The notes under the pieces: generated by a model
What the model was told of the DNA's origin: nothing
The model's database searches: none
What the model saw: only the letters and a program-made list of their open reading frames with translations
Translations under genes and position numbers: made by a program
DNA from: Desulfotignum sp.
GTDB taxonomy: Bacteria > Desulfobacterota > Desulfobacteria > Desulfobacterales > Desulfobacteraceae
Assembly (NCBI GenBank): GCA_018399285.1
Contig: JAGYOW010000003.1
Location: forward strand, 1-64,000
Direction of reading: 5' to 3'
Length of the DNA stretch: 64,000 nt
Part shown: one piece after another, positions 22,336 through 46,122 of the stretch
How positions within the stretch are numbered: position 1 is the first letter of the stretch
Layout: each line of letters begins with the position of its first letter

Positions 22336-22349
22336 TTTTTTCTCCCTAA

Positions 22350-23035: not shown

Positions 23036-23084
23036 TTTACCCTTAAGGATTTTTAAGGTTTACTATCTGGTTGCCATTCTAAAA

Positions 23085-23466: not shown

Positions 23467-23511
23467 TTTTGTCTCATTATAAAGTTTTGTTTTAAAAGTC
23501 ACTTCTTTGAA

Positions 23512-24780: not shown

Positions 24781-25031
24781 GCTCCCTTTTTGTACTTCAA
24801 CGATCTGGCCGTATTTTTTCAGGGTTGCCATATACCATAGGGCTTTGTCCGTCGGCATATCGATGCCCGCTGCAATTTGGATGGTTGCCGCCCCTCCCTT
24901 TAAAAAATGCTTTGATGGCGGCGATATCTTTTTTTTGTATTTTCATTGTGGATGAAGTTGAGGCTATCAAGCTTTTTCAGGCCCCTTAATTCCTTCATGG
25001 CGGTTTTTTGCCTCTTATCTTTATTGATCAT
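24730..25031 (-). pseudogene. Small winged-helix-like gene remnant
   Basis: ATG 25031 opens INKDKRQ; joined fragments give LRGLKKLDSLNFIHNENTKK, AIKAFFKGRGGATIQIAAGI, KALWYMATLKKYGQIVEVQK and YTLSEQEKITKKKQ. The T-x-Q-I-A-..T-..LWY-...-LKK-GQI pattern resembles a winged helix. It lies between hdrA and hdrC. Function is not known to me. Confidence 0.45.
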
Positions 25032-25067
25032 TGTATTTTTTCCAATAAACGAAGTTTTGTGAATCCA

Positions 25068-26832
25068 TCAGACAGTAAAACCATCTGAAACAATTGCATC
25101 AACCATATCTTCATATTGTTTTAATGCCCATCCATTTATATCGATTGCTTTTTCAGATAGACAGCCGCGTACGCTTTCCCGCATCCCAGGTATAATGCAA
25201 TGTTACCTGAGCCTTTTATGTGAATTTTATCTTTCATATTCACTCTATGAGCTCCAGCGCCCCTCTTTAAGATAGGCTTCCTACACAGGCGCCATGGCCC
25301 TGGCATTTGTCGGTATCAACTTCTCGCTACAAAGGGATCAGTTCAATATACCCTTTGCTTAAAAGAGCAGATGCTTTTACAGCCGAAGCCCTGCAGCATT
25401 GCAAGCTTCCCGGCATCCATGGGTGCCTGACATGTCCCGGCAAGAAAACTCCGGTTATGGGAAATTCAACTGGCCGAAGTTTTGGATGGACTAAAGAAAT
25501 TTATCTGTTCCAATGGGAAGTTTCAACATTGAGGCAAGGCCTGAAACATCATCGTCTAATTTCGTTGCAAGAATAACAAGGTCTGCCGGAATCTCCATCT
25601 CCTGTTAAGGTCAGCTGTCTTTTAATTTTGACCTGCAATGGATAATCAGGTTTGGGGCATGGGATTATTTCAGTAAGGGGCATCCGCCTCATACCGCATG
25701 AAAATCACCTTTGTTTTTGGATGCCTGATTATACAACTCTTCCTGTCCCCGGCTTATAGGTTCTGATATCCCTGTACATTTCATAAATCCCGGTTTCCAG
25801 GAAAATTTTCCCTGATCTGATTTGGAGATACATTGAGCATGGCAGCGCAGCATGTTCTGGAACAATATTCATTGAGTTGCCCATTTTCTTTAGGCTGGTG
25901 AATCCTGGTATCTGCCGGTCGCCCACACAATGAATCATGACCATATTTTTAATAGTCTTCCCATTAACTCAAGCACAGATCCTGCAGATTTGTTTTTTAA
26001 AATAGGGATCAAATCCTTGAGGGTAATTACCTGCTCATGCCGGCCAAAGCCGCATTCGCCTCAAAGGGCATATAGAAACAGATCCGCCGCTATAACAATG
26101 GCTCCGGTATCTATTGTTAATTTTTTATTATCTTGATTTCGGTTAATATATCCAGGCTGAAGTTGCTTATCCTGTTACATCTTGAATTTTGCAATCTGTG
26201 TGAATGGTGATACCTTTGGGGTTAAGAACCTGATCCAAAAGTTCCTGGAGTACCTCGGATGCTTTTCTCCGGAAGGGGCGAGTCTGTCAAGGTTATTCAG
26301 CTGACGCCACATGATAGGTGCTTTCGATGAGTGTCACATCAATCCCCGTTTGAGCAATATCCAAAGCGGCCTTAATATCATAAATACCACCCGATTATGG
26401 TTGTATGCTTTTGGCTTCAACCCGGATGGGATCCAAGGGTTTGAGTTGTTTTGCCTTGGCCGTGGCAGATGATAAGAACTGAGGCCTTGCTCCGTGGCAG
26501 GTCTCCGTGGTGAACCCAGGAGACCTGTTCCCGGATATTGGCATGTTCATAAATAAAGGGTTGGAACTCGCCCGACACTGCATCCCTGAAAGTAGTTTCA
26601 TGCAGGCTTGGCGCGCAGGATGCAAACTACCACCGGGTCAATTTTGCCGCTTTTTAAATCCTTCTATGATCATTTCTTGTCCGGGATCAGAGCACATGAA
26701 CATCTCAGTTCTACAAGGCAACACTGCATTTTTCAACCCTGTTTCTGACTTCTTCCACATCAACATGGTCTGAAATATTGCCCCCGCAATAGCATATATA
26801 GACCCCTTACGTTTTGATTTTTTTCACTCATC
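25068..26832 (-). pseudogene. HdrA remnant, C-terminal-type polypeptide
   Basis: ATG 26832 follows ATAGGAG and opens a second HdrA-like chain. Fragments read ISDHVDVEEVRNRVEKNAVL, MFMCSDPGQEMIIEGFKK, GGIYDIKAALDIAQTGIDVT, and a double ferredoxin end: VDTDKCQGHGACV, then CGECVRG-like and AIDINGWALKQYEDMVDAIV, stopping at 25068. HdrA carries FAD and Fe-S clusters and is the bifurcating core of Hdr complexes. Many breaks (of order fifteen) interrupt it. The two-chain HdrA arrangement (with 26844-28100) is notable. Confidence 0.6.
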
Positions 26833-26843
26833 TTTAATTCTCC

Positions 26844-28100
26844 TATAAGGCTTTGGACATGAATTTAGCAGCTCCCGGCGGCGGCAGAACCTGATCCTGT
26901 AATGGTGTCCACAATATCCTTGGGTCCCGCTGCTGCTCCTGCCAAGCAAAACAGACCATCCATATTCGTGAGAACCGGAGATACTTTTGGGCTTTATCGA
27001 GGTAATAAAACTGCATCAGTGTTCTGAAACGGACATACTGGTTGGTTTAGATTCCAGCCCGGAACCATTCCCATGGAGAACCACCAGATCATGGCTTGCC
27101 GTTGCAGTACCGGAACCGTCCTGAAGCCTATATCGAACCCAAGCTGCCAGTGTTTTCACCTTTATCAACCCGGCAACCTTGGCTTTGATAAACTCAATAC
27201 CCATGGCTTTTGCATTTTGCAAAATTGTTCACCTCTTTCCAAATGCCCTGATATCCATGTAATAATCGTAATGTCCGCCAGGAAGGAACCGGATAACAGC
27301 ATGGCCTGTTTAATGGCATACATGCAGCAGACCCTTGAGTTAATAGGAAACCTTACGCTTATCCCGTGAACTGTTAACATTGAACATAGGCAATGGAATC
27401 AGGTTCCATAACAGTTCTGAGGGTCTTAATACGGTTATAGGGTCCATGGGGGCCAGAAGCCTTCCATCTGTAAAGAATCAATCACATTGGGACCTTTGCT
27501 GCTGCCGTATTGAGTATTGTCTTTCACGGGGAGCAGATCAAAACCCTGTTGTGACCACGGCTGTTTTTGAAGCAATCAGAAATTCTTCGGCTTTTGAAGG
27601 TAATCAATAGCATTTGTGGGACATGCTTTTCGCATTGCCCGCAAAGCATGCAGTTTTCTATATCCATGATGGGCAGTTGGGGGATAGCATTTGAAAATGG
27701 ATGGCAAATCGCTTTTGTGGCGCTTAAACCGCCTTGTTCCATATCTGGTATATGCACAGGGCAAACATATTCACATTGTCTGCACCCGATACATTTTACC
27801 GGATCCACATATCTGTGCTTTGAGTAATTAGCGCTTTCATGCCCTGGAATTCCTCGGAACCGTCATAGTCCAATGAATTCAATTCGCAATATGTAAATAT
27901 GTAATGTTTTCACAGGGCGACAGCCGATATTTTAGGGGTGGTAATACAACTACAGTCAAGGGTGGGAAAATCTCGAAAGCCGTATCATTTTCCCCCAATG
28001 GAAGCATCTTTTCACAACACAACCTTGTATCCCTGATCACCAAGATCCAGAGCCGTCTGTAAGCCTGCAATGCCGCCATACAACAAGTGTGTCACAAAAT
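26844..28100 (-). pseudogene. hdrA: HdrA remnant, N-terminal-type polypeptide
   Basis: Fragments in order: GGIAGLQTALDLGDQGYKVV, DASIGGK, FPTLDC..CITTPKISAVA, a ferredoxin (DPVKCIGCRQCEYVCPVHIP and ENCMLCGQCEKACPTNAIDY by joining frames), AVVTTGFDLLPV-like, SRVCCMYAIKQAML, AKAMGIEFIKAKVAGLI, SPVLTNMDGLF and GPKDIVDTIT, ending KFMSKAL at 26844. This is standard HdrA order. Where checked, deletions are evident: the TLDCSSCI motif reads TGTAGTTGTATT, three bases short. Flavin- and Fe-S-containing electron-bifurcating subunit. Confidence 0.7.
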
Positions 28101-28149
28101 TAAATATATCTGTGGGATCACAACATCCTCCTGAAAGATTTTCTTTCTT

Positions 28150-28640
28150 AGTTCACTGCCAAAAATGGCAGGAACTTTAATTGGTCTGATGTTAAATTCG
28201 CTGCCTGTCTTAACTAAAACACGGAATCAGACTATCAATTGCGGCGGGCCGATTTCACGTATCAACTGGTCCATCTGTTTTACCTCATTTAAAAAGGCCC
28301 GGTTACAAACCGTACAGATGGCTGTCAGGCGAAGACGTTTTATATCAATCTCCATTTTCTTCATTTTTGTAGACACTATCCAGCCTTTTGCTAGGCCTTA
28401 TAAGCTCCTTCATAGGGACATTCTTCACCAGGACATTACAATGATGCCGCTTATCCCTTTTAAAGCAGCTTGATAAAATGATTCCGGGAAAAGGACAGGT
28501 GCCCTTACTCTTAAAATATAGGTGTTTGCAGGATAAGTTGAATGGGCTTGACCTACAGAATCCGCTCCGGATAGCACAGGTTTCCGTGGCTAAAATTAAA
28601 ATTTTGTTCTTGTTCTTCTTTCCGCCTGGGGTGACATCAC
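28150..28640 (-). pseudogene. mvhD: MvhD/FlpD-type subunit remnant
   Basis: Joined frames give ADSVGQAHSTYPANTYILRV, PVLFPESFYQAALKGISGII with VMSW, CPYEGAYK, DSVYKN, MKKMEIDIKRLRLTAICTVC and NEVKQMDQLIREIGPPQ. This is the MvhD/FrhD delta-subunit plan (Cys-containing, passes electrons to HdrA). It lies between tusA and hdrA remnants. Several breaks. Confidence 0.65.
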
Positions 28641-28647
28641 CACCTGC

Positions 28648-28897
28648 CTATTTATTTCTGGTTATAAAATGCCTGTCATATCCTTCAGCTTCCAGGAGGC
28701 CAAGATACTCATGTCCAATCCTTCCCGCCCACGCCGGAAGATCAGTTTTTGTTCCGTTATCGTTGGAAAGAATTTCCAGTGTCTGACCTACCTGAACTTC
28801 TTGCCGATGCCTTTTTGGCTTCAAGAAGGGGGCCAGGACATGCACTGCCTCTGCGTCAACTTATGTCTGCGGCTTCTATTGCATTAAGATCTGTCAT
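28648..28897 (-). pseudogene. TusA-like sulfur carrier remnant (CPGP motif kept)
   Basis: ATG 28897 opens MTDLNAIEAADI. After a break the frame reads GSACPGPLLEAKK, then after another break VQVGQTLEILSNDNGTKTDL, PAWAGRIGHEYLGLLEAEGY and DRHFITRNK before the stop at 28648. The active Cys of the TusA CPxP motif is present, unlike the intact relative at 16741-17001. As first gene after a sigma-54 promoter it heads the Hdr/MetVF operon. Confidence 0.65.
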
Positions 28898-28970
28898 TTT
28901 TATTCCTTAATATTTAATTTTTTAGGTTCAATTTCTTTTAGAGGCATGATCGCCATATAGAAAGGGATTT

Positions 28971-28986
28971 TGCAAGGACAGTGCCA
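28971..28986 (-). promoter_or_regulatory. Sigma-54 promoter of the tusA-mvhD-hdr-metVF operon
   Basis: Minus strand TGGCACTGTCCTTGCA matches the consensus TGGCAC-N5-TTGCA at every fixed position, about 75 bp before the tusA-like start and just after the end of an activator gene remnant. The promoter is intact although nearly every gene after it is broken. Confidence 0.8.
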
Positions 28987-29012
28987 AGGCTTTATAATCA
29001 ATTTGATTAAAT

Positions 29013-30405
29013 CTAAAAGCGGTTGGTTTCATTGGCCAGGTCCGCAGCCGGTATCGCTTCATCTGACTCCACACGCTGGTACGGGATATCCCCAGGATTT
29101 TCGCCTGTGACTGGTTGCCACCGGTTTGCGCCAGTGCCTCCAGCAACCGCTTTTTTGATATCATCAATGCTTTGTGCCTTATCCCGTAAGTGTCCTCGCA
29201 AACAGGCTCCGCCGGGTCATATCCGGAGGAAAATGATGAGGCTGTATCATAGGGTCGTGACAAGAAACAAAGGCATATTCGAAGGCACTTTTCAATTCAC
29301 GGACATTGCCCGGCCAGCGATACTGAATAAGTGCTTCCCGGTGGCTTCGTTGAATGCCTGATTTTTTTGCCGCCTGAGAAGAATGCGCCGGAAAAAATGA
29401 TTCTGCCAGCAGGAATGTCGCTGATGCGCTCCCGGAGCGGCGATCCAGATCGGAACCACGTTGATTCGGTAGTAAAAATCTTCCCGGAAGGCCCCCTTTG
29501 TCAACCGTGCCCTTAGATCACGGTTGCGGCCGAAATCACCCGGGCGTTGATGGACACAGACAGGTTGTCACCCACCCTCTCGACCACTTTTCGATAGAAC
29601 ACGCAAAAAGTTCTTACCTGGGTGAGAGTGGCAGATCCCCGATTTCATCAAGAAAATACTTCCCCGCCTGCTGCGGCAAAACGCCCGTCCCTGTTTTTAT
29701 AGGCACCGGTAAAGGCCCCTTTCTTACATGGCCGAATAGTCACTTTCCAGCAGGGACTCATTCAACGCGGCACAATTTACCTTACATACGGTTTTTCACG
29801 GCGCTACCATTTTCAGCGAATCGCCCGGGCAACAAGCCTTTACCGGTTCCGCTTTCACGTAAATGATGACCGGAGCATCAGACTCCGGCGGTATCGGCAA
29901 TCAGCCTGGAAAACACTCACTGACGCTGAATTGCCTACCATTCCGAACGCCGGTCTTCCGATTCCAGTTCCTGCCGGAACCTCAATCTGGGTCTCTTTAT
30001 CCAGTAAGTCACTGGATATCAGCAATGCTTTCCCACTGCCCCGGAACCCTTCTCCTTCTGGTCTTTCAATACAGACGCGTTTTTTACCACATGTATATAG
30101 GAACCGTCTTTAGCATCAGGACGCATTCGCTCCTTCATCGTCCTCTGAATAGCGTACCAGTGGCACTCTTCTGGGCTTTAGCGCACGATGTGTCACATGT
30201 GCTGCACCAACACCGAACAGGGCTTCCTGAAGTATTTGCCTTTGCGGGTAACCCGTTATCTTCTCAAACCCTGGTTCACCGACACGATGGTCCCTTCGGT
30301 ATCCACGATCATGACGCCGTCTTGAATCGTATCAACCACGGTTTTCCAATATTTGTTCAGTTCTGTTTTTAAACATTGTTCAGTTCTGTCTACTCTATTT
30401 AACAT
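29013..30405 (-). pseudogene. PAS-type sigma-54 activator remnant
   Basis: ATG 30405 opens MLNRVDRTEQ and a PAS-like segment (KYWKTVVDTIQDGVMIVDTE, GTIVSVNQGL). Later fragments give VNCAALNESLLES, FREDFYYRINVVPIW, AMSVNxK-like (from W.GNVREL), DIKKAVAGGTGANRW and a Fis-type end (NPGDIPYQRVESD in one frame, GISRTSVWSQMKRYRL in another). Walker A and GAFTGA are not cleanly readable. It lies directly upstream of the sigma-54 promoter it presumably served and parallels the intact activator at 17257-18660. Confidence 0.7.
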
Positions 30406-31070
30406 GCAAATGTTTAGCAACTTAACACTTCGTATAGTGAAAATCAATGCCGAATAAAAACCACAGACCTGAAACTGAATTTGCTTAAACCATTCAGCTG
30501 CCGAGCATAATTTGTAGAACTCCTGACACCTACTTTGTCATGCAACTTACGCCGTATTGTAAAAGTTGTTTTAATGTGGTTGAGACCTTAAAACCATTGA
30601 TACGAAGCCTTTTCAAATATGATGTCAGGAATTTGAATTTTAAATGGCATTTCCAATCCTTAACGTTTTGTGTTTATATATTTATTTTTTTCCAGGCGGC
30701 GCCCTTTGTTCCCTGTCTTGCTAACTAGGCCAGTAGCTGTATTTGCAATTCCCACAAAACAAACTGTTAACCATCAACAGGGCAAAAATACAATGCAAAA
30801 ATTGATTCATGGGGCCATGGTCCCTTCACACTCCTTAAAAATAAGCAATTCGTTCAGAACTCTTGGAAAAGGAGGAAATCCTGAGATTTTATTGAGTGAC
30901 CGCGATGCCCCTGGATGATCTTGTCATGATAATTCCTGAAAGCGTATGCGCTGATCAAGATGGAGGTTCTTGGATGGAGAGGATCAGGGGATCCGGATTC
31001 AGTTAAAAAATGCGCGGAAAATAGAAAAGAGTCGTTTCCTAACAACCCAATAAATATGAGACTATCATTA
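30406..31070. other. No recognisable gene
   Basis: AT-rich sequence upstream of the activator remnant. A short plus-strand frame from 30793 (MQKLIHGAMVPSHS) has no family match I can name. No promoter, tRNA or hairpin could be supported. Confidence 0.5.
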
Positions 31071-31074
31071 GGGA

Positions 31075-31180
31075 ATCGGCGAAGTTCTGGCTCTCCAAAG
31101 TGTTTCAACCCCTGACTGCGCCAGTTACATTACTACTCCTAAAATGGCCTCAGCAGCTCATCACGATAACATTACGCGTT
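31075..31180 (+). pseudogene. Short HdrA fragment in opposite orientation
   Basis: One plus-strand frame, with a small shift, gives LSKVFQPL then DCASYITTPKMASAAHHDNI T, the strongly conserved HdrA segment TLDCASCITTPKM.sAa.H.nIt. One Cys reads Tyr. It is isolated: flanking sequence does not continue as HdrA, and it points opposite to the main hdr remnants. It looks like debris from a second hdrA copy. Confidence 0.5.
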
Positions 31181-31259
31181 GTCTACCTTTGGGATGTGGA
31201 ATGTCCTGACCGGACGGGAGACAAGTATGAAACCTGCGATTCATTAGCAAGAGAGGCGT

Positions 31260-32620
31260 ATCATGAAAGAAGCTACAACCCATTTTTCCCTGAATCGGGT
31301 TTCCGACCTGGTAGCACTGCAGCATGGGGGAAACAGCGTCAGATGCAACACTTTGGAGATTTTACCGGTTAACTTTGTTCATCGGGACAATCTGTTTCAG
31401 GTTTATATTTTTCTTTTGTCGGTATAACGGCACGGTGAATGACAAAGCGTACAGTTTTTGGAAGTGTTACGCCCGTGGATGCTCGCACAACCTGTGTCCC
31501 CATATTTCCCAGGCCGTTATGATTGCCAACCGATATCTTCAAAGAGATTATTGCAAGCTGGAGCAGGCTGGTATCGAGGGCGAAAAAATCTTTTACGCTT
31601 GAGGAAATGACGGTCAAGTTCGATGGGTACTAGGAAGAGCACGGGCCCGATTTTGCCATCCAATACGCCTATATCAATATCGCCGGCGAAGGCACCGACG
31701 TCAAAGTGGCGCTGGTTCTCGAATTTGTGCCCGCGGTCGAACACGTTGCGAATCATGAAAACCGGATGATTTTCTTGATGGTCAATTTTACCGTCACCTG
31801 CTCAAAGAACCCAACACTATGAACGCTGCCCGGCATGTTACCCCAGGCCGAAGAAGACGAACCCAGAAAGCAGAAATTTCAGCCGCCAATGAACGCTTAA
31901 GATTATTGTACGACGAGTCTGACAAAGCTCGCAATTGATCATGAAAACGATTTTTCCAATTAGGATCGAATGTGACTCGACCAGCACCAAAGAACCGTTA
32001 AACCCAGAAGACAAGCGGTTACTCTTGATCCTATACACCTTTTTGCTGAGTGACTATCATTGATCCAATACGCGAACACCGGATTGTCTATGTGAATTCG
32101 GAAGCCGCCCGCATGATGGGCCGCCCGCAAACGGAGATGTTTCAACCAAGTTTGCCAAGCAACTATATTTGCCCTTTTGCTCGAGGAAAATGCCCGATAA
32201 CCGACCTGGGGCAGCAGATCGATCGGTCCGCACGCGTTGTGTGGGATTGACAGCACGGGTGCTGAGGTTCCAACTTGAAGAGTGTCAACGCATCCGGTTC
32301 ATGGCGCAGGATCACCCGCTGAAACATTCATGACAACCGCGCTGTCGTGAGAAGAGCGCCTGGTAGGGGTTCTGGAAAATGGCAGGCGCTGCTGCTCGCT
32401 AATTTGAGCCAGCCTCTGCAGGCGCTCATGTTCGACCTGGATGACCTTGGAACAAGAAGGTCCCACAGCGCTGGTCTGATAAATTGAAGACCATGCAGGA
32501 ATCGGTTGAAGAAACGCGGATGTCATCAGAAACATCCAGGCAATTACCCCGTTACCAGACCAGGAATATGTTCATGGAGCCCGCATCGTCGATACCGACG
32601 GGTGCCTCCGCCCCGGGAAT
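31260..32620 (+). pseudogene. Sensor kinase remnant: unknown Cys domain, PAS and HisKA-like region (copy 2)
   Basis: Shifted plus-strand frames give THFSLNRVSDLVALQHGG, LPVNFVHRDNLFQVYIFL, then KAYSFWKCYARG, CSHNLCPHISQAVMIANRYL and QRDY, FTLEEMTVKFDGY, YINIAGEGTDVKVALVLEFV and PAVEHVANHENRMIFLMVNF (the family shared with 22350-23035). A PAS segment follows (IREHRIVYVNSEAARMMGRP, then CPFA..KCPITDLGQQID). Then comes a kinase dimerisation-like region (FSQPLQALMFDLDDL-type, NADVIRNIQAIT, YVHGARIVD). No ATPase domain is seen. Many breaks. Confidence 0.5.
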
Positions 32621-32744
32621 AACATAACCAATATTTACTCAGCTGGGCTTTTTACCGTTAACCTGGGCAATTTCTTTGACATAAGAGAACTCTTACAGCG
32701 CACACGCGCGAAAAGCTCGTCAATAGAGGATTTGGTACTTGGAC

Positions 32745-33165
32745 AAAAGGTTATCTCGAAACTCCCACATACATCCTGTATGTCAGCGTGCGATATGAAA
32801 CTCGGGCGGGTTGAGAATATTGCGTTTCACCGTGCACAGCCCGGCGTTTTGACAATTGCGGATCGGTACTTTTGGGAAACCCCGGGGGCAGGCTGATATC
32901 AATATTCACATTTCGAACCACGGTCTGTCTGTTTCTGTCAAAAGACAAGACATTTTCAACCCCGTGGTATCGATATTTCTTCTTTCACAAAATAGATCAC
33001 ATAAATACCGGCACAGCGCCTATGGATGCCAGGAAACAGGTCAACGGCTCGGGCATCAACCGTCAGCTCTCTTCTCTGCCTGGTCGGTTTCAATGGTAAA
33101 ACCCGTTGTACCGGGCGTTGACTTTATTGCCGGAAAATTCAATTTCCATGGTCATGGACATCGCC
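32745..33165 (-). pseudogene. OsmC-family protein remnant
   Basis: Minus-strand pieces read MTMEIEFSGNKVNARYNGF, PEPLTCFLASIGA, VLSFDRNRQT, VRNVNIDISLPPGFP, then KTAGLCTVK-like and NPPEF by shifting frame. This is the OsmC/YhfA pattern with the catalytic Cys region after the LPPGFP strand. OsmC proteins reduce organic hydroperoxides. It is convergent with the kinase remnant and downstream of the DUF1638-like remnant. Confidence 0.55.
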
Positions 33166-33289
33166 CTTGTCAGCAGGATCTCAGGTGTATTTAACTCTCA
33201 CTTCCTTTGCCGTATACTATAATCAGGATCACAGGTATTGCAACGATTTTGCGCCAGGCCGGGTCCGTCGAAACTTATTAAGGTTGCTC

Positions 33290-36886: not shown

Positions 36887-37633
36887 ATGAACCGATATGA
36901 GGACCCCATGCTCAATCCCAACTCACCTGTGCCATTGTATCACCAGCTGGCAGAGATTATTTCTGAACGGATCCGATCCGGGGAATACCCGCCCGGCCAG
37001 GCGATCCCCTCGGAAACCGCCATGGCCCGGCAATACCATATCGGCCGCCCCACCGTGCGCCAGGCCATGGATGTGCTGGTGCACAAAAATCTGATCCTGC
37101 GCAGACGCGGTGCCGGCACCTTTGTGCAGTCTCCGGCCCCCAAAGTGGATCTGTTTTCCCTGGCCGGCACGTCCCAGGCGTTTTTCACCCGGGGTATCAC
37201 CATTGAAAAAACCATTGTCACCCCGGTCACGCGGATGTCCGTGGAAAATCAGCCGGACAACCCGTTCAACCACGCATCCGCATATTTTTTGTCCCGGTTG
37301 ATCCGGGCCCAGAACACCCCCGTGCTCAAGGAAGATATTTTCCTGGATCCGGAACTGTTCCGGGGTCTGGACCGTGTGGATCTGGGCACCGAGTCTTTGT
37401 CCCGGACCGTGGCTGAAAAGTATCACCTGGCCCCGGAAAACGGTACCCAGGTCTTCACGGTGGCGCCACCGGATCCGGTCACGGCCCGGTGGCTGGAACT
37501 GACGTCCGACACCCCCGTGCTCACCGTGTTCCGGGAGCTGAATTTCCCCGATGCACCCGCGGCTGTTTACGGGGTGCTCTACTGCCGGACCGACCGGTTC
37601 GCCTTTTCCCAGACCATCGGGAACCTGTCATGA
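36887..37633 (+). CDS. GntR-family (HutC/UTRA) regulator
   Basis: This is a 248-residue regulator. The winged helix (about 12-80) has PLYHQLAEIISERI, YPPGQAIPSETAMA and the recognition helix RPTVRQAMDVL. A UTRA ligand-binding domain (about 95-240) follows. A second in-frame ATG (36908) could also be used. Its stop (ATGA) couples to a 15-codon reading frame that ends at the trpB start, so the gene is tightly linked to trpBA and probably controls it. The ligand is unknown. Confidence 0.85.
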   Translation: MNRYEDPMLNPNSPVPLYHQLAEIISERIRSGEYPPGQAIPSETAMARQYHIGRPTVRQAMDVLVHKNLILRRRGAGTFVQSPAPKVDLFSLAGTSQAFFTRGITIEKTIVTPVTRMSVENQPDNPFNHASAYFLSRLIRAQNTPVLKEDIFLDPELFRGLDRVDLGTESLSRTVAEKYHLAPENGTQVFTVAPPDPVTARWLELTSDTPVLTVFRELNFPDAPAAVYGVLYCRTDRFAFSQTIGNLS

Positions 37634-37673
37634 TCCGTTTTTTATCAACCTGTTGCATCAAGGACCCAAAATC

Positions 37674-38900
37674 ATGAAACACCGCGGTTATTACGGTGAT
37701 TTCGGCGGCGCCTTTCTGCCTGAAATCCTGATTCCCACATTTGACGAACTGGTATCCACCTTTGACTCGGCCAAAGCCGATCCCGGATTCCGGAACCAGT
37801 ATGAAACCCTGATGGCCCAGTATTCCGGCCGGCCCACGCCGTTGACGTTCGCCGCCAACCTCACCCGGCATTTTGATGGTGCCAAAATCTATATCAAGCG
37901 CGAGGACCTGAATCACACCGGGGCCCACAAAGCCAACAATGTCATGGGCCAGGGACTTTTGGTGAAAAAAATGGGCAAAACCCGGGTGATCGCGGAAACC
38001 GGGGCCGGTCAGCACGGAGTGGCCTGCGCCACCATGGCTGCCAAATTCGGGTTTGACTGCACCATTTACATGGGGGAAAAAGATGTGATGCGCCAGCGGC
38101 CCAATGTGTTCTGGATGGAGCAGCTGGGCGCCACCGTGGTGCCGGTGACCGACGGCACCAAAATCCTCAAGGATGCTATCAACCAGGCGTTCCGGGACTG
38201 GGTGACCCATATGGACACCACCCATTATGTGCTGGGAACCGCCTGCGGCCCCCACCCGTTTCCGGAAATGGTGGCATGGTTTCAGTCCATTATCGGCATT
38301 GAAGCCAGACAGCAGATTCTGGACCTGGAAAGCCGGCTGCCGGACCGGGTGTATGCCTGTGTGGGCGGGGGGTCCAATGCCCTGGGCCTGTTTGCCGGTT
38401 TTCTGGATGACCCGGTGGAACTGGTCGGCGTGGAGGCCGGCGGCAAAGGCATTGACACGGGATTTCATGCAGCCCGTCTGTCTTCCACCGATGCCGGTGC
38501 CGGCATTGCCCAGGGATACAAAACTTATTTTCTCCAGGATGATGACGGTCAGATGAAAGAAACCCACTCCATTTCCGCCGGCCTGGATTATGTGGGGGTA
38601 TCCCCCATTCTGGCCCACATGCATGAAACCGGAACCGCCCGGTTTGAAAGCGCCACAGACGCGGAAGTGGTGGATGCCCTGAAGCTGACCATGAAAAACG
38701 AAGGCATCATCCCGGCCCTGGAATCGGCCCATGCCTTTGCCGGAGCGTTCCGGGAAGCCCCAACCCTGTCCAGAGACCAGATCATCATCATCAACCAGTC
38801 CGGCAGGGGCGACAAGGATATCTTCACGGTGGCCGACGCCCTGAACGACCCTGAATGGAAAACCTTTATCCAGACAAAGGCGGCACAATACCATGCTTGA
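37674..38900 (+). CDS. trpB: Tryptophan synthase beta chain
   Basis: This 408-residue PLP enzyme joins indole and serine. The PLP lysine is in HTGAHKANN (Lys86), the phosphate loop is GGGSNAL, and ETGAGQHGVA and SAGLDYVGV are present, which is the TrpB1 type. ATG 37674 follows AAGGACC; the longer open frame upstream lies in the GntR gene. The gene overlaps trpA by eight bases. No trpE, D, C or F is nearby, so the pair is separated from the rest of the pathway and may salvage indole or be controlled independently by GntR. Confidence 0.95.
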   Translation: MKHRGYYGDFGGAFLPEILIPTFDELVSTFDSAKADPGFRNQYETLMAQYSGRPTPLTFAANLTRHFDGAKIYIKREDLNHTGAHKANNVMGQGLLVKKMGKTRVIAETGAGQHGVACATMAAKFGFDCTIYMGEKDVMRQRPNVFWMEQLGATVVPVTDGTKILKDAINQAFRDWVTHMDTTHYVLGTACGPHPFPEMVAWFQSIIGIEARQQILDLESRLPDRVYACVGGGSNALGLFAGFLDDPVELVGVEAGGKGIDTGFHAARLSSTDAGAGIAQGYKTYFLQDDDGQMKETHSISAGLDYVGVSPILAHMHETGTARFESATDAEVVDALKLTMKNEGIIPALESAHAFAGAFREAPTLSRDQIIIINQSGRGDKDIFTVADALNDPEWKTFIQTKAAQYHA

Positions 38901-39663
38901 ATCCTATATCCGTGACAAACACAAGAAAAAAGACCTGCTGCTCATGACCCACATTGTCATGGGTTATCCCAGTTTTGACGACAGCCATGCCATGGTGAAA
39001 CACATGGTGGCGGCCGGCGTGGATCTTATGGAGCTGCAGATTCCGTTTTCCGAACCCATGGCAGACGGACCTGTGATTCTCAAGGCCAACCAGAAAGCCC
39101 TGGAGCAAGGCGCCACCGTGGCAAAATGCCTGGCATTTGCCAAAGACGTGGCAGCAAGATATCCCATTCCGTTTCTGTTCATGACCTATGCCAACATCCC
39201 TTACAGATTCGGCATGGCAGCGTTTGCAAAAACCACTGCAGACATCGGCCTGACCGGTGCCATTGTCCCGGATCTGCCCATGGAGGAAGGCGCGGAATAT
39301 CTCCAAGCCATGGAAAAAAACCATTTGTCTCCCATACAGATGTTTTCACCCAGTACCAGTGATGCCCGCATGGCACAGATCGCATCCATTGCTTCCGGGT
39401 TCATCTATTGTCTGGCCAGAAAAGGCGTGACCGGCGCACAGACTGATTTGTCCGATGATCTGGCCCAATACCTGGCCCGGTGCCGAAAGGCGGCTTCCGT
39501 TCCCCTGGCCGTGGGATTCGGGATCAAAGACCGGGCGGATATGGATTTTCTGGCAGGCAGGGCCGATATCGCGGTGATCGGCTCTGAAACCATCCGAATG
39601 ATGGAAAGGGGCGGTGTGGCGGCTGTCCGGGATTTTATTCAGGGGCTGTCACGTTCGGCTTGA
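38893..39663 (+). CDS. trpA: Tryptophan synthase alpha chain
   Basis: This 256-residue TIM barrel releases indole from indole-glycerol phosphate. Catalytic Glu47 and Asp58 are visible in ELQIPFSEPMADGP, and the phosphate site in GFGIKDRAD. The motif has Glu where Asp is commoner (SEP for SDP). It starts inside the trpB end, so the two are co-translated. Confidence 0.93.
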   Translation: MLESYIRDKHKKKDLLLMTHIVMGYPSFDDSHAMVKHMVAAGVDLMELQIPFSEPMADGPVILKANQKALEQGATVAKCLAFAKDVAARYPIPFLFMTYANIPYRFGMAAFAKTTADIGLTGAIVPDLPMEEGAEYLQAMEKNHLSPIQMFSPSTSDARMAQIASIASGFIYCLARKGVTGAQTDLSDDLAQYLARCRKAASVPLAVGFGIKDRADMDFLAGRADIAVIGSETIRMMERGGVAAVRDFIQGLSRSA

Positions 39664-39770
39664 CCCGGCAATCGGTTTCAGGTGTTTTTTTATTGCATCC
39701 CCAAGGGTTTTGCCATAGAATTCACGCCATCGGGTATCACCTGAAACCTTAAAACAAGAAAGGTCTGCCC

Positions 39771-40286
39771 ATGGATGACCTGGACAACCCCAAAGAACCG
39801 TTGATTCAGAAACTGCGGGTTATCATCCGGTTCAGTGTCCGCTGTCTGGCGGTCCTGATGACCCTGGTAATTCTCTGGGGCGTGGTGGACGTGGCCTGGG
39901 AGATCTACCAGAAACTGCGCACCCCGCCGGTCATGCTCATGAGCATCAGTGACATTCTGGCCACATTCGGCGCGTTCATGGCAGTGCTGATCGCCATTGA
40001 AATCTTCATCAACATCACCGTGTACCTGAGAGATGATGTCATTCATGTCAAAATTGTCATGGCCACGGCACTGATGGCCATTGCTCGAAAAGTCATCATC
40101 CTGGATTTCTCCGTGGTTACACCGGATTACATTCTGGCCACTGCGGCCCTGGTGTTTGCCATGGGGATCGGATACTGGCTGGTGGTCAAAAACGCCGACG
40201 CCCGGTCGGTACTGCACAGCGAAGCGGAAAGATGCTTTGAAAATCCGGATCATTGTGAAATGGAAGGGGTGGACAAAAAGCTGTGA
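39771..40286 (+). CDS. PsiE-family membrane protein
   Basis: This 171-residue protein has four predicted helices (about 18-40, 55-80, 88-108, 120-140) and the PsiE pattern (phosphate-starvation-inducible E; FINITVYLRDD, ARKVIILDF). Function of the family is unclear. ATG 39771 lies after AGAAAGG. Its TGA overlaps a GTG start of the next gene, coupling it to a sigma-54 activator. Confidence 0.8.
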   Translation: MDDLDNPKEPLIQKLRVIIRFSVRCLAVLMTLVILWGVVDVAWEIYQKLRTPPVMLMSISDILATFGAFMAVLIAIEIFINITVYLRDDVIHVKIVMATALMAIARKVIILDFSVVTPDYILATAALVFAMGIGYWLVVKNADARSVLHSEAERCFENPDHCEMEGVDKKL

Positions 40287-41779
40287 TCGCCGGCCGGATA
40301 TGTGATGTGAAACGGTTCTGCCTGCCCGGCGTGGATTTCAGCCGGCTGGCGTTTATGGATCTGCTCTGTGATCTGGATCTGGGCGTGCTCATGACCGACG
40401 ACAAGGGCATCCTGATTTTTTACAATGAGGTCCAGGCCACCATCGACAAGATGGACCCGGCCGATGTCCTGGGCAAACCCATCACCCAGGTTTATAAATA
40501 CAACAATGACTCTTCCACCTGCATGCGGGTGCTCAAACACGGCAAGCCCATCATCAACTATGCGCTGTCCTACCGGTCGCATAATGCCGATGTGGGCAAT
40601 ACCATTCACAGCGTATTTCCTTTGTTTCACAAACAAAAAATCTTTGCCACCATCTGTTTTGTAAAAGATTACAATATTCTGGAACGGTCCATTCCGGCTT
40701 TTCTGTCTCCCAAGAACAATCAGCGCTTTGCGGACGGCACCCACTATACATTTGCCAGCATTATCGGATCCGACCCCGGGTTCGTGGATGCGGTAAAAAC
40801 CGCCAAGATGGCCGGAAATTCGCCGTCTCCGGTCATGCTCTACGGTGAGACAGGCACGGGCAAGGAACTTTTTGCCCAGGCCATCCACAATTTTTATTAT
40901 GGAAAAAAGGGCCATTATGTGGATATCAATTGTGCGGCCATCCCTGAAAATCTGATTGAAGGGCTGCTTTTCGGCACGACAAAAGGGGCGTATACCGGTG
41001 CTGTGGACCGGGCCGGACTGTTTGAACAGGCCAACGGAGGCACCATTTTTCTGGATGAAATCAACTCCATGCCACTGCACTTACAGGGCAAACTGCTGCG
41101 GGTGCTCCAGGAAAAAAAGCTGCGCCGGGTGGGATCGCTCAAAACCATCGATCTGGACGTAAAAATCATCTCCTCCCTGAACCAGTCTCCCCGGGATCTG
41201 ATCCGATCCGGGGTCTTCCGCATGGATCTTTTTTATCGCTTAGGCGTGATCTACATCAAGCTGCCGGCCCTGCGGGACCGGCGCCCGGACATTGAAGAGC
41301 TTGGACGTCATTTTCTGCAGAAATACAATACCCAGCTGGGCAAATCCCTTCAAAACATCGCCCCGGAGGTGATTGATTTTTTCTGGCAGTATCCCTGGCC
41401 GGGCAATGTCCGGGAACTGGAACATGTGATTGAAAGTGCCGTCAATTTCGCCGGCAGAGATGAAACCCGTCTCAAACTGGAGCATTGTTATTTTGCCAAT
41501 ATTCTGGAACAGGAACCACCCCATTCGCCGTCACCGGATCCGACACCGGCGGATGATTCTCATCAATCTGAATCATCCGCTTTACCGGCAAATCTCGATC
41601 TGTGCTCAGCGCTCAAAACTCTGGAAAAAAAAATGATTATCCAGGCCCTGGAACAATCCAGCGGCAATGTGGCCGGGGCAGCCAGGCGCCTGGGCATTTC
41701 CCGTCAGCTGCTGGGCAGCAAAATATCCAGGCTGCGGCTTCGCCACTTTCTGGCTGAGCTTAAACACAAAAATATGTAA
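40283..41779 (+). CDS. RocR-like PAS sigma-54 activator
   Basis: This 498-residue enhancer-binding protein has an N-terminal PAS (about 25-130), an AAA+ domain with GETGTGKE near 188, GAYTGA near 236 (F to Y variant) and GTIFLDEINS, and a Fis-type helix-turn-helix (VAGAARRLGISRQLLGSKIS). GAYTGA and NSMPLHLQGKLLRVLQEKK resemble RocR-type regulators of arginine/ornithine use. The start is GTG 40283 overlapping the psiE stop; an internal ATG at 40355 is possible. A sigma-54 promoter sits 130 bp downstream of its stop, so it likely activates the BCCT/QueG-like genes. Confidence 0.88.
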   Translation: MIAGRICDVKRFCLPGVDFSRLAFMDLLCDLDLGVLMTDDKGILIFYNEVQATIDKMDPADVLGKPITQVYKYNNDSSTCMRVLKHGKPIINYALSYRSHNADVGNTIHSVFPLFHKQKIFATICFVKDYNILERSIPAFLSPKNNQRFADGTHYTFASIIGSDPGFVDAVKTAKMAGNSPSPVMLYGETGTGKELFAQAIHNFYYGKKGHYVDINCAAIPENLIEGLLFGTTKGAYTGAVDRAGLFEQANGGTIFLDEINSMPLHLQGKLLRVLQEKKLRRVGSLKTIDLDVKIISSLNQSPRDLIRSGVFRMDLFYRLGVIYIKLPALRDRRPDIEELGRHFLQKYNTQLGKSLQNIAPEVIDFFWQYPWPGNVRELEHVIESAVNFAGRDETRLKLEHCYFANILEQEPPHSPSPDPTPADDSHQSESSALPANLDLCSALKTLEKKMIIQALEQSSGNVAGAARRLGISRQLLGSKISRLRLRHFLAELKHKNM

Positions 41780-41790
41780 AACAAATTTGC

Positions 41791-41812
41791 TTTGTAAATT
41801 CTATTTTACAAA
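41791..41812. promoter_or_regulatory. Inverted repeat, probable activator site
   Basis: TTTGTAAA-N6-TTTACAAA is a perfect 8-bp inverted repeat about 95 bp upstream of the sigma-54 -24 box, the normal distance for an enhancer. It could also serve as the activator gene's terminator, as a T-run follows at 41822. Confidence 0.5.
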
Positions 41813-41906
41813 AGAGCAAACATTTTTTCCCTCCTTTAATTTCTTTTTTTTCGCTTATTTTTCGATCGCCTGATCTATAAAGGCGTTGCAGGCCCATGCG
41901 GCTGCC

Positions 41907-41922
41907 CGGCACACAAATTGCT
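41907..41922 (+). promoter_or_regulatory. Sigma-54 promoter of the BCCT/QueG-like genes
   Basis: CGGCACACAAATTGCT has GGCAC and TTGC with GG and GC ten bases apart. It lies 65 bp before the transporter start and downstream of a sigma-54 activator gene. Confidence 0.7.
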
Positions 41923-41986
41923 CAAAGCAAAAGCCAGCGATACAATAAAGGATGTCAACACAACCATTTAATTGAAGGAGAAAATC

Positions 41987-42490
41987 ATGTCGGAAGTGTC
42001 CAAAAAAATCGATCACACCCTGATGTGGCCCGGGGTTATCGTCACGGGTATTATCGGTCTGCTCCTGTCCTTGTTCCCGGAATCGGGACGGGCCGTGGTA
42101 GATACCCTGTTTGCCATACTCACCCACAATTTCAAATGGCTTTTCCTGATGTTCGGCCTGTTCTGCGTCATTTTTCTGGCCACCACCCTGAACTCGGCTG
42201 CCTACACCCTGTCATCCCAGGTGACCATAAATCTTTCCGGTGATGAGGAACCGCCCCGCTGGAACCGAACCCTCTGGGGAATCATTCTGGGACTTCTGGC
42301 CCTGGGACTGCTTTCTACCGGCGCACTCAAGGCGGTGCAGCTCTCCTCCATTGTGGTGGCCCTGCCGTTGATTCCGGTACTGCTGCTCATGGTCTTCTCG
42401 CTGATGAAATGGCTTAAAGAGGATTACGGGGAAATTTTGAAAACAAATGTCCAGGCACTGCCTCCTGAAAAGATCAAACCCGCTGTTTAG
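41987..42490 (+). CDS. Internally deleted BCCT-type (betaine/carnitine/choline) transporter
   Basis: This 167-residue protein joins the N-terminal end of a BCCT transporter (DHTLMWPGVIVTGIIGLLLS to about residue 62) directly to its last two or three helices (TTLNSAAYTLSS, PRWNRTLWGIILGLLALGLL, LKAVQLSSIVVALP, ending KEDYGEIL). Full BCCT proteins are about 500-650 residues, so about 330-400 residues including the Trp-rich substrate box are gone, and the frame is kept. ATG 41987 follows AAGGAG. It cannot be a normal transporter. It could be a decayed gene or a small derived membrane protein. Sigma-54 controlled. Confidence 0.75.
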   Translation: MSEVSKKIDHTLMWPGVIVTGIIGLLLSLFPESGRAVVDTLFAILTHNFKWLFLMFGLFCVIFLATTLNSAAYTLSSQVTINLSGDEEPPRWNRTLWGIILGLLALGLLSTGALKAVQLSSIVVALPLIPVLLLMVFSLMKWLKEDYGEILKTNVQALPPEKIKPAV

Positions 42491-42510
42491 GCGGATCAAA
42501 GGAAAACATC

Positions 42511-43338
42511 ATGATTATTGAGCAACAAGCATCCGCTGCCATATTAAAGCAGGCAAAGGCGCTGGGCGCCAGCCTGGTTGGGATCGCCCGGGTGGAAGAT
42601 CTCAGATCCGCGCCTTCTTTCACTTTTGCGCCGAAAATGCCCCATGCCGGAGAAGGCATCGGAACCCGGAAAACCGATTCCGGCCTGAAACCCGGAGAAG
42701 CGGCATGGCCTGAAAATGCAAAATCAGTGATTGTCATCGCGGTGAACCATCCTGCAGACGAACCCGAGATGGACTGGTGGTTCGGCCGGAAAGATCCGCC
42801 GGGCAACCGCATCCTGGCAAAAATCTGCCGGGACCTGTGCCCCTGGATCGAAAAAACCTTCGGCATCCAGACCGTGCACCTGCCCTATCACGTGGAAAAG
42901 GGCGGCACCTATCTCAAAGATGCCGCGGTCATGGCGGGCCTTGGCTGTATCGGCAAAAACAATATTCTGATCACCCCGGAATTCGGTCCCCGGGTGCGGC
43001 TCCGGGCCCTGACCGTGGATACAGACCTGATCGCTACCGGCCCCAGGCAGTTTGATCCCTGTAAAAACTGTCAGGAATTCTGCCGAAAGGCCTGTCCTCA
43101 AAATGCTTTTGCCACCCAGCAGTACACGGAAGCGGAATATGGACAAAAAATCCTTCCGGGACGGGACGGCAGCTACAGCCGGCCTTTTTGCAATATGCAG
43201 ATGGAACAAGACAATGATGTGGCAAAAGAACAGCTGGTTGACGGGTTTGACGACCCTGTGAAAATCATCAAATACTGCCGCAGATGCGAGCTGGCCTGCC
43301 CGGTGGGAAAACCGGTCAAATCTTCGGACACCCATTGA
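42511..43338 (+). CDS. QueG/reductive-dehalogenase-like Fe-S protein
   Basis: This 275-residue protein opens with an alpha/beta domain (AKSVIVIAVNHPADEP, AAVMAGLGCIGKNNILITPE, FGPRVRL) typical of epoxyqueuosine-reductase-like and corrinoid-linked reductases. It ends with two [4Fe-4S] groups (CKNCQEFCRKACP, CRRCELACPVG). It lacks the C-terminal repeats of QueG. Such short relatives are found in methylamine/betaine methyltransferase loci as corrinoid activators; the BCCT neighbour makes that reading plausible, but no methyltransferase is present here. Twenty bases separate it from the BCCT gene. Confidence 0.7.
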   Translation: MIIEQQASAAILKQAKALGASLVGIARVEDLRSAPSFTFAPKMPHAGEGIGTRKTDSGLKPGEAAWPENAKSVIVIAVNHPADEPEMDWWFGRKDPPGNRILAKICRDLCPWIEKTFGIQTVHLPYHVEKGGTYLKDAAVMAGLGCIGKNNILITPEFGPRVRLRALTVDTDLIATGPRQFDPCKNCQEFCRKACPQNAFATQQYTEAEYGQKILPGRDGSYSRPFCNMQMEQDNDVAKEQLVDGFDDPVKIIKYCRRCELACPVGKPVKSSDTH

Positions 43339-43360
43339 CGCTGGATGATAACCACCTCTT

Positions 43361-43395
43361 CATCCCGGCCCGGAGCTGTCTTCCGGGCCGGGATG
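43361..43395. terminator. Hairpin between convergent genes
   Basis: A perfect 13-bp stem CATCCCGGCCCGG / CCGGGCCGGGATG with a 9-base loop lies between the QueG-like gene and recD2. There is no clear T-run, so it is a likely but not classic terminator. Confidence 0.6.
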
Positions 43396-43423
43396 GGGCC
43401 TACCGGGTGTTTCCCCTGTTTGA

Positions 43424-45559
43424 TCATGCGGTCAGCCGGTCTTTGAGCCCGGATCGGCGCAGGCGGGTGCGGTTGTTTTCAAATGCGGTGTGCACGGCCC
43501 GGGAGGATCCCACCATGATCACCAGGTGTTTGCCCCGGGTCAGGGCCGTGTAGAGCAGGTTGCGCTGGAGCAGGGGAAAATGGGCCATGGTCAAAGCGAT
43601 GATCACAGCCCCGTATTCCGAGCCCTGGGACTTGTGCACGGACACGGCATAGGCCAGGGTGAGTTCGTCCAGGTCCAGCAGGTCATAGGTCACACAGCGG
43701 CCGTCATAGTCCACTATCAGGGTCCCGTCCGCCCTGGACACTTCAGTGACCTGGCCGATATCGCCGTTGAATACCTCTTTCTCATAATTGTTTTTCAAAT
43801 GCATCACCTTGTCCCCGGACCGGAACGTGATGCCATGGCTGTCGATCCCGCCTTTGCCCGGATTGAGCACGGCCTGGAGCTGCTGGTTGAGATTGATGGT
43901 GCCGGCCTCGCCCCGGTGCATGGGGGTTAAGACCTGAAAATCGGTAATATGGGGAAAGGTTCTGGGAATCCGGTTGGCGCACAGTTCTATGATGGTGGCC
44001 ACCACTTTGCCACTGTGCTGGTTTTCAATAAAATAAAACTCGGAGAGCCCCTGTTCTTCCCTGGCTTTGAAATCAGGCATTTGCCCGTTCCGGATATCGT
44101 GGGCATGGCGAACGATGGGGCTTTTCTGGGCCTGCCGGAAAATTTTGGTCAGCGCAAACACCCGGACCCGGCCTGAATCCATGATATCGGACAGCACATT
44201 GCCCGGTCCCACAGACGGCAGCTGAAACGTGTCTCCCACCAGAATGAGACTGGCACCCGCCGGCATGGCCTGGAGCAAATGGTACATCAAAAGGGTATCC
44301 ACCATGCTGGCCTCATCCACCACCATCACATCCAGGTTCAAGGGATTGGTGTAATTGTGTTCCACCGTGCCCTGATCCGTATCAAATCCCAGCAGCTTGT
44401 GCAGGGTAAACGCTTTTTTGCCCGTGGTTTCGGAAAGGCGCCGGGCGGCCCGGCCCGTGGGGGCTGCCAGAACCACGGTGAGACGAAGCTGTTTGAACAC
44501 CTGGCACAACGCCCGCACCAGGGTGGTCTTGCCCGTACCCGGACCCCCGGTGATCACGGACATTTTCCGGGTCATCACCTGGCACACCACCTCCAGCTGC
44601 TCGTCGGACAATTTCACTGCCATGCCGGACAGCACCTGTTCCAGAATCTCCTCCTGACTGATCTGCGGTTCCGGCGCCGGCATGGATAAAAGGGCATTGA
44701 TCCGGTCGGCAATTCCTTTTTCCGCTGCATACAGTCGGGTCAGATAGATGCGTTCCTCCCAGATCCGGATCTCTTTGCTGCCGGCAAGGGTTTCCAGGGC
44801 CGGGGCAAACAGGTCTACATCCACCCCGGCCAGGCGGGCGCAGGCAGAAAAAAGTTCCTCTTTCAGCGCATAGACATGGCCGTCCGATTCAAAGGTCAGC
44901 AGCTGGCAGAGCAGACAGGCGGCCAGACGGGCAGGGTCGGTTTTTTCCACCCCTTTGGCCCGGGCCACGGCATCGGCGGCCGCAAACCCGATCACCGGAA
45001 TATCAATGGCAATGCGAAACGGATCGGTTTCCAGAACGGTCATGGCACCGGCTCCATAGGTTTTGAGAATCAGTCCGGCATGGGCCACATTCACGCTGTT
45101 TTCCTGGAGAAACTGCATGACCCGGCGCACAGCGTGATGGGTGTTCCAGGATTTGACAATCATCTGCTGTTTGCCCTTGCCGATACCCGTCACCTCCCGC
45201 AGTTTTTCCGGCTGATTCTCAATGATCTCCAGGGTCTGATCCTGGAACCGGTCCACGATGCGGTCTGCCAGGGATCTGCTGATCCCCTTGATCATGCCGG
45301 AGCCCAGGTATCTGCGGATACCGGATATTGTGGCCGGCAGGGTGACTTCATAGGTTTCCGCTTTGAACTGGTCCCCGTATTTTGGATGAGACGCCCACTG
45401 GCCTTTCAGGGTCAGGGTCTCACCTTCAGCCACCCCGGCCAGATATCCCACCACGGTGATGGGGTCCTGGATCTTTTCCACCTGGATCCGGCACACCGTG
45501 TAGTGGTTGTCCGGGTTCTGGTATGTCAGGCGGGACAGCACCCCTTTGATGGTGATCAT
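43424..45559 (-). CDS. recD2: RecD2-type ATP-dependent DNA helicase
   Basis: This 711-residue superfamily-1 5'-3' helicase starts with an OB-like domain (GVLSRLTYQNPDNHYTVCRI) and helix-hairpin-helix stretch (VTGIGKGKQQMIVKSW). Its motor motifs are GGPGTGKTTLV (motif I), VVDEASMVD (II), LVGDTFQLPSVGPG (III) and AVSVHKSQGSEY with LLYTALTRGK (V-VI). RecD2 works without RecBC in DNA repair. Its start overlaps the gmhB stop by ATGA and it is the last gene of the lon-rlpA-gmhB-recD2 run. Confidence 0.93.
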   Translation of the reverse strand: MITIKGVLSRLTYQNPDNHYTVCRIQVEKIQDPITVVGYLAGVAEGETLTLKGQWASHPKYGDQFKAETYEVTLPATISGIRRYLGSGMIKGISRSLADRIVDRFQDQTLEIIENQPEKLREVTGIGKGKQQMIVKSWNTHHAVRRVMQFLQENSVNVAHAGLILKTYGAGAMTVLETDPFRIAIDIPVIGFAAADAVARAKGVEKTDPARLAACLLCQLLTFESDGHVYALKEELFSACARLAGVDVDLFAPALETLAGSKEIRIWEERIYLTRLYAAEKGIADRINALLSMPAPEPQISQEEILEQVLSGMAVKLSDEQLEVVCQVMTRKMSVITGGPGTGKTTLVRALCQVFKQLRLTVVLAAPTGRAARRLSETTGKKAFTLHKLLGFDTDQGTVEHNYTNPLNLDVMVVDEASMVDTLLMYHLLQAMPAGASLILVGDTFQLPSVGPGNVLSDIMDSGRVRVFALTKIFRQAQKSPIVRHAHDIRNGQMPDFKAREEQGLSEFYFIENQHSGKVVATIIELCANRIPRTFPHITDFQVLTPMHRGEAGTINLNQQLQAVLNPGKGGIDSHGITFRSGDKVMHLKNNYEKEVFNGDIGQVTEVSRADGTLIVDYDGRCVTYDLLDLDELTLAYAVSVHKSQGSEYGAVIIALTMAHFPLLQRNLLYTALTRGKHLVIMVGSSRAVHTAFENNRTRLRRSGLKDRLTA

Positions 45560-46122
45560 GGGACCGGGTGCCCGGGTTGGTGGGTGATCCAGTGGGCGGC
45601 CGCCATCAGGTTCTCTGCGAAATAATCCGGTGGTTCGCCCTGGTCGGTCAATTTTTCAAACGCCTGTTTGCCGTTTCCCGTGGCCACCAGCACGGCCTTG
45701 CCGCACCCCGCGTTCCGGGCCGCCTGAATATCTTTGACACTGTCGCCCACAAACAGGGATCGGGACAAATCGATGTCATACCGGGCCTTTGCCTGGTATA
45801 TCAATCCCGGCTCTGGTTTACGGCAGTCACATCCGGCATCCGGGGTGTGGGGACACAAAAATATATCCAGGATCCGGCCTCCGGCCGCAGCAATCCCCTG
45901 GTGCATTTTATCAAAAATCAAATCCAGGGTCTGCCGGGTGACCATGTTTCTGCCGATAATGGACTGGTTGGTGATGACAATGATGTCAAATCCATACCGA
46001 TTCAGCCTTGCAATGGCCCGGCGGCTGCCCGGAATGAAATGAAATTCAGACGGGTGCTTGATATATTCAGGCGAATCCTGATTGATCACCCCGTCACGGT
46101 CCAGAAATACCACGGCTGCCAT
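45556..46122 (-). CDS. gmhB: D-glycero-D-manno-heptose bisphosphate phosphatase (HAD family)
   Basis: This 188-residue HAD phosphatase has FLDRDGVINQDSPEYI (motif I), ITNQS (II), the zinc loop CPHTPDAGCDCRKPEPG and VGDSVKDI (motif IV), the GmhB signature. It removes a phosphate in ADP-heptose synthesis for lipopolysaccharide core. The start at 46122 (MAAVVFLDRDG) is preferred over the longer frame that would enter rlpA. It is four bases from rlpA. Confidence 0.9.
   Translation of the reverse strand: MAAVVFLDRDGVINQDSPEYIKHPSEFHFIPGSRRAIARLNRYGFDIIVITNQSIIGRNMVTRQTLDLIFDKMHQGIAAAGGRILDIFLCPHTPDAGCDCRKPEPGLIYQAKARYDIDLSRSLFVGDSVKDIQAARNAGCGKAVLVATGNGKQAFEKLTDQGEPPDYFAENLMAAAHWITHQPGHPVP

Follow-up and report, generated by a model that had tools for sequence, protein, structure and literature searches.

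A very probable recent deletion allele of a DddT-like BCCT gene in a sigma-54-controlled unit of Desulfotignum sp.

Deletion between short direct repeats, by slippage or annealing, is a textbook class of bacterial mutation, in which the missing segment has a repeat at both ends and one copy is kept. Here we describe a gene of the BCCT transporter family whose central part is missing from Desulfotignum sp. (assembly GCA_018399285.1, contig JAGYOW010000003.1, positions 1 to 64,000; this whole stretch of 64,000 nucleotides is referred to as the window). The gene lies between a sigma-54-dependent activator gene and a gene for an iron-sulfur (Fe-S) protein. We consider it very probable that this allele of a DddT-like importer gene arose by a recent deletion private to its lineage, with a transport-dead remnant as its product. 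Set beside the textbook deletions, the window differs in nothing notable save the preserved frame and helix orientation.

The closest described transporters are DddT, the Na+-coupled importer of dimethylsulfoniopropionate (DMSP) from Psychrobacter sp. D2, and CaiT, an L-carnitine/gamma-butyrobetaine antiporter of the same fold family. Among proteins of solved structure, the intact orthologue of the window gene (see below) was most similar to DddT (E = 5.6e-131 over residues 8 to 508), followed at a greater distance by CaiT (2e-79), a trimethylamine transporter (8e-76), and BetP (6e-68). We took the 12-helix topology from the DddT structure paper (PMC13270143), which also names residues of the substrate path, the substrate box, and the sodium sites; all DddT-mapped positions given here are taken from it. 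The intact orthologue is identical to DddT at 10 of the 12 mapped substrate-path residues (W107, Y114, W144, S208, W317, F320, Y321, W324, W325, and Y328), whereas it has G and A in place of A99 and G101, and its cation-site changes include S256 to A and D421 to N. Because these positions differ, its substrate and coupling are only presumptive by likeness to DddT, and DMSP transport is a candidate function predicted from that similarity.

The internal deletion and the intact allele of relatives

The features of the gene in the window are as follows.

41987..42490, + strand: BCCT gene with a 1077-bp internal deletion; the 167-aa in-frame remnant corresponds to intact residues 1 to 61 and 421 to 526
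41975..41980, + strand: ribosome-binding site (RBS) AAGGAG, by direct reading of the sequence
42170..42179, + strand: deletion junction ATTTTTCTGG, the sole remaining copy of a direct repeat; in relatives, a copy stands on either side of the segment missing here

Two genomes of the same genus (G009 and G011) hold an intact 526-aa BCCT gene in a single open frame at the same locus. The window is collinear with G009 on both sides of the gap (97.2% identity for 37001 to 42179 and 96.8% for 42141 to 45999), the identity figures for G011 are nearly equal, and the BCCT genes of these two relatives are identical except at 2 of their 1581 bases. The gene is also of full length in G033, G200, G301, and G172. 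In the alignment to the G009 and G011 genes, 1077 bp (i.e., 359 codons, intact residues 62 to 420) are absent from the window gene, and there is no frameshift. An earlier sequence-only reading of the window had put the loss at 330 to 400 central residues, which the alignment narrows to this figure. Its description of a kept RBS and start, a retained first membrane region and last helices, and an unshifted frame of 167 residues agrees with what we read in the sequence, and the comparison with full-length genes that it proposed located the deletion ends together with a short direct repeat at both.

The remnant frame starts with ATG at 41987, and an alternative TTG start at 41972 would give 172 aa. 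By homology to Pfam BCCT (PF02028), the 167-aa protein is still a member of the family (E = 2.9e-22; 79.2 bits against a cut-off of 27); the match is in two stretches, of which the best aligns residues 56 to 146 with positions 398 to 485 of the 485-position profile. Compared with G009, there is one amino acid change (S11T) in the 61 residues of the N-terminal part and none in the 106 residues of the C-terminal part. The corresponding nucleotide changes (one synonymous and one nonsynonymous in the former; three synonymous and no nonsynonymous in the latter) are too few to judge selection.

Mapped through the DddT alignment, all 12 substrate-path positions fall within deleted residues 62 to 420, so that the window copy lacks every one of them; the absence of a substrate site, which distinguishes it from CaiT as well, had already been claimed from the sequence alone. 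The deletion removes 5 of the 10 mapped sodium-site positions and leaves the other 5 (F422, T425, T426, N428, and S429, on transmembrane helix [TM] 10). The 12-helix core with its substrate path (residues of TM3 and TM8 and an aromatic box) is thus not present in the remnant. With no mapped position of the substrate path left and only half of those mapped to the cation sites, the 167-aa polypeptide is predicted to be unable to transport. Hydropathy indicates four membrane segments (i.e., TM1, a fusion of TM2 and TM10, TM11, and TM12). In the DddT topology, the first half of TM2 and the second half of TM10 run the same way, and the fusion helix can therefore keep the orientation of the segments that follow it.

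A short direct repeat at the join and the possibility of an artefact

In the intact gene, a 9-bp direct repeat, TTTTTCTGG, stands at both ends of the deleted segment, embedded in a 39-bp imperfect repeat (26 of 39 positions matching), and a single copy is left at the join of the window, which reads GTC-ATTTTTCTGG. Among the 816,600 possible junctions of 300- to 1499-bp deletions in the intact gene, a fraction of about 1.5e-4 lies in or beside a repeat of at least 9 bp, in a test that was devised after the join had been seen. Strand slippage or single-strand annealing between the two repeat copies, during replication or repair, would account for the loss of the segment. The intact gene has 12 repeats of at least 9 bp; as 8 of these 12 are spaced by a multiple of three, the in-frame outcome is no argument for function.

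Two observations weigh against a recent deletion between these repeat copies that left a dead gene. First, the left repeat copy in G009 and G011 is CTTTTTCTGG, with C where the join of the window has A; the difference is at the base beside the repeat. The crossover may have taken place immediately to the left of the repeat, or else A was already present in the ancestor. The A can be ancestral, because the left copy in the G301 gene (L152) is GTCATTTTTCTGG, that is, ATTTTTCTGG as at the join. Second, the remnant carries no disabling mutation, which is compatible with a very recent deletion as well as with continued selection.

An artefact, with the real gene intact and the gap produced by misassembly of the fragmented draft or by a chimeric amplicon, would also yield a deletion confined to one genome, and template switching at short direct repeats can leave the same signature. 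The genome from which the window comes (G000; 3.5 Mb) is indeed a draft of 199 contigs with a completeness of 86.5%. We nevertheless regard this explanation as unlikely. Between parts of the intact gene separated by 300 to 1499 bp, exact repeats reach at most 11 bp, and the one at the join has 9 bp. Such lengths make an assembler join through a shared word unlikely, since usual assembler word sizes are larger. The contig is also collinear with G009 across the site. The missing middle is moreover not stranded on another contig: a search of the draft with the intact middle (1061 bp) gave six matches, none of which was the missing segment. Five were BCCT paralogues (69 to 80% over 63 to 100 bp; the best, 80% over 94 bp), and the sixth covered 30 bp, at 90%, in another part of the contig that carries the window. 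On the basis of this search, we rejected a collapsed assembly in which the middle had ended up on another contig. The draft carries five other BCCT genes (open frames of 520 to 534 aa), which are about 30 to 36% identical to the intact version of the window gene.

Search for other short forms and the fate of the remnant

The sequence-only reading had left two possibilities, a new small membrane protein or a leftover after recombination, and had proposed looking for the same short form in other strains. No other short frame with both ends was found in 58 other near genomes (29 with a BCCT match; 30 of 59 with the genome of the window) or, at E <= 1e-12, in 394 other genomes of the phylum (8 with a match), where divergent short forms could escape. 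At this threshold, 9 of 395 phylum genomes matched (own included), and the nine matches listed from outside the own genome have frames of 419 to 873 aa. Three other short frames appeared in near relatives. Two of them (G010:C35, 292 aa; G005:C96, 80 aa) are contig-edge fragments, with matches right at the contig starts, and the third (G010:C55, 84 aa) is what remains of a different BCCT gene and lacks a start. Among the matches listed from the genome and viral collections, 82 loci were checked for frame length; 79 of the 82 lie in frames of at least 450 aa, and two (L108 and L111) are cut by contig ends. All 23 aligned relatives, a chosen subset, span the missing part. A search of plasmids gave two records with weak BCCT matches only. 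A literature search aimed at truncated BCCT proteins returned nothing apparent on the subject, and one for Desulfotignum with BCCT found nothing.

A widespread short form was rejected, as only contig-edge fragments and different truncations turned up in the near and phylum genomes and among the loci checked; in these, the short form was not seen to recur in a second lineage, as a conserved family of small membrane proteins would. One different truncation is on a contig of the viral collection (L139, 5001 to 6077; 33% identity), where a 418-aa frame matches only query residues 17 to 378. Its end is missing although the contig continues, which is a truncation of another kind than that in the window.

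A functional role for the 167-aa product, for example as a regulator or as an interfering partner of other BCCT subunits, could be read from the preserved start, RBS, promoter, and frame, from the parallel TM2 and TM10 halves that keep the helix orientation, and from the C-terminal part, which is free of amino acid changes. However, no second short frame with both ends was seen in the near and phylum genomes, and a frame is easily kept by luck given the spacing of the repeats in this gene. The AlphaFold2 model of the product is uncertain (mean predicted local distance difference test score, 74.5; predicted template modeling score, 0.48), and its best match in the PDB is a weak one to CaiT (E = 2.2). 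We therefore judge such a role to be highly improbable. A new fold was rejected as well, given the uncertain model and the lack of a PDB match at E <= 0.001. We give very little credence to the bolder idea that one short-repeat deletion created a working four-helix membrane protein at a stroke, such as a decoy subunit or a sensor of the neighbours' substrate, although promoter, frame, and topology are kept.

Thus, of the two possibilities left by the sequence-only reading, the leftover is the one favoured by an intact allele in the nearest relatives, a repeat at the deletion ends, and a deletion seen in a single genome, whereas the new protein finds no second occurrence, has an uncertain fold, and shares its in-frame outcome with most of the possible repeat pairs. 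In the favoured reading, a recent deletion allele, the remnant would be on its way to loss.

A different BCCT paralogue of the same genus is also broken (L140, G010:C55:1-5745, at about 4988 to 5194; the 84-aa frame mentioned above). Judged by an intact copy in G002, its start and first ~430 codons are gone through a deletion of ~1.36 kb with a join overlap of ~5 bp; the gene downstream is MttB-like and matches an MttB-family gene of the draft (G000:C13). BCCT decay therefore occurs in this genus. Several other large insertions and deletions separate the window from G009 across the same 64 kb, and together with the loss in G010 they make the loss of one among several BCCT genes unremarkable here. 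Taken alone, the deletion in the window is ordinary gene loss; it illustrates how, in a draft assembly, the short gene left by a clean in-frame deletion can be mistaken for a new one.

The control region, the Fe-S gene, and the conserved unit

The genes and sites around the remnant are as follows.

40283..41779, + strand: intact sigma-54-dependent activator gene (498 aa) with PAS-like, AAA+, and Fis helix-turn-helix (HTH) domains, from Pfam
41791..41812, + strand: inverted repeat TTTGTAAA-N6-TTTACAAA, a putative activator binding site
41907..41922, + strand: sigma-54 -24/-12 element CGGCAC-N5-TTGCT (GG-N10-GC), from the upstream comparison
42511..43338, + strand: intact third gene of the unit, for an Fe-S protein (275 aa) that is a distant relative of QueG and reductive dehalogenases

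The activator matches Sigma54_activat (4.5e-58), HTH_8 (1.2e-10), and PAS_9 (5.4e-6), and its ratio of nonsynonymous to synonymous substitution rates (dN/dS) is about 0.1 against both G009 and G011. We compared seven upstream regions (window, G009, G011, G200, G033, G301, and G172). A -24/-12 element is present in six of the seven, by the stricter pattern in the window, G009, G011, and G200; G033 and G301 fit only the looser GG-N10-GC pattern, in which chance matches are possible, with the same GGC...TTGC core, and in the G172 region neither pattern found one. An inverted repeat with arms of at least 6 bp occurs in four of the seven (window, G009, G011, and G033), with shorter arms in G033 (TGTAAA-N6-TTTACA). 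The gene rpoN is present in all three genomes searched (G000, G009, and G011), so that an AAA+ and HTH activator, a -24/-12 element, and the sigma factor gene, as in sigma-54-regulated operons, are all at hand. With complete domains in the activator and elements also found upstream of the relatives' genes, the previous description of activator, inverted repeat, and promoter as intact stands. The 123 bp before the BCCT start (41864 to 41986) are identical to those of G009, in contrast to a difference of ~2% in the activator and Fe-S genes; this identity may reflect promoter constraint or chance.

Judged by these elements, the remnant and the Fe-S gene are plausibly expressed. The activator and RNA polymerase-sigma54 would fire to give an mRNA for a 167-aa four-helix polypeptide and the intact Fe-S protein, and the Fe-S gene would stay expressed because the deletion is not polar. 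The Fe-S gene has a dN/dS of about 0.1. Its product matches TIGR00276 (1e-11) and TIGR02486 (2.6e-8), neither reaching its cut-off, and a tetrachloroethene reductive dehalogenase chain (1.2e-9). An Fe-S protein of this QueG/reductive-dehalogenase-like type recurs near BCCT, MttB, or methylenetetrahydrofolate reductase genes (window, L182, L143, and L040), and it may be the protein that reductively activates a corrinoid methyl-transfer system.

Activator, BCCT, and Fe-S genes occur together in ten other loci found, and the BCCT gene is of full length in all ten. These are five close versions of the unit (G009, G011, G033, G200, and G301), two more distant ones (G015 and G204), and three paralogous cassettes (two in G002; one in G008, with its activator cut by a contig end). 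At least one of these cassettes has an internal MttB methyltransferase gene. The MttB-linked cassettes of the genus (e.g., G002:C92, L143) have a sigma-54 activator, a BCCT gene, and the same type of Fe-S gene in the same order as the window, but they carry an MttB-type methyltransferase gene (PF06253, 3.1e-120) between activator and BCCT, which the window unit lacks. In G172, the BCCT and Fe-S genes adjoin without this activator and are followed by a methylenetetrahydrofolate reductase gene. At E <= 1e-40, the Fe-S protein is found in 66 of 242 genomes of the order (own included); most of its loci were not seen adjoining a BCCT gene, since a BCCT match stood beside it in 5 of 30 fetched loci (window included), whose flanks were short.

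By association, these neighbours point to a role of the unit in methylated-compound metabolism. The conserved unit (i.e., sigma-54 activator, DddT-like BCCT transporter, and QueG/dehalogenase-like Fe-S protein), which is found in several families of the order, is the more useful by-product of this analysis, as a candidate system by which anaerobes would take up and handle a methylated compound, either a sulfonium or an amine. The draft carries 13 MttB-family matches. Two MttB-family genes (G000:C2:77847-79322 and G000:C145:99604-101070) have one in-frame TAG each, as would be expected of a pyrrolysine-containing MttB.

Searches of the window for Rfam families and tRNAs found none. A region of ~13 kb (19700 to 33200) has few long open reading frames and a G+C content mostly of 0.40 to 0.47, compared with ~0.51 around it. 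No tandem arrays were found in it and no phage match for 20000 to 27900. It is largely absent from the G009 locus and 92% alike over ~9.5 kb in G004:C50, and its first 1.85 kb recur at 88 to 89% on two other contigs of the draft; the region is probably mobile-element debris.

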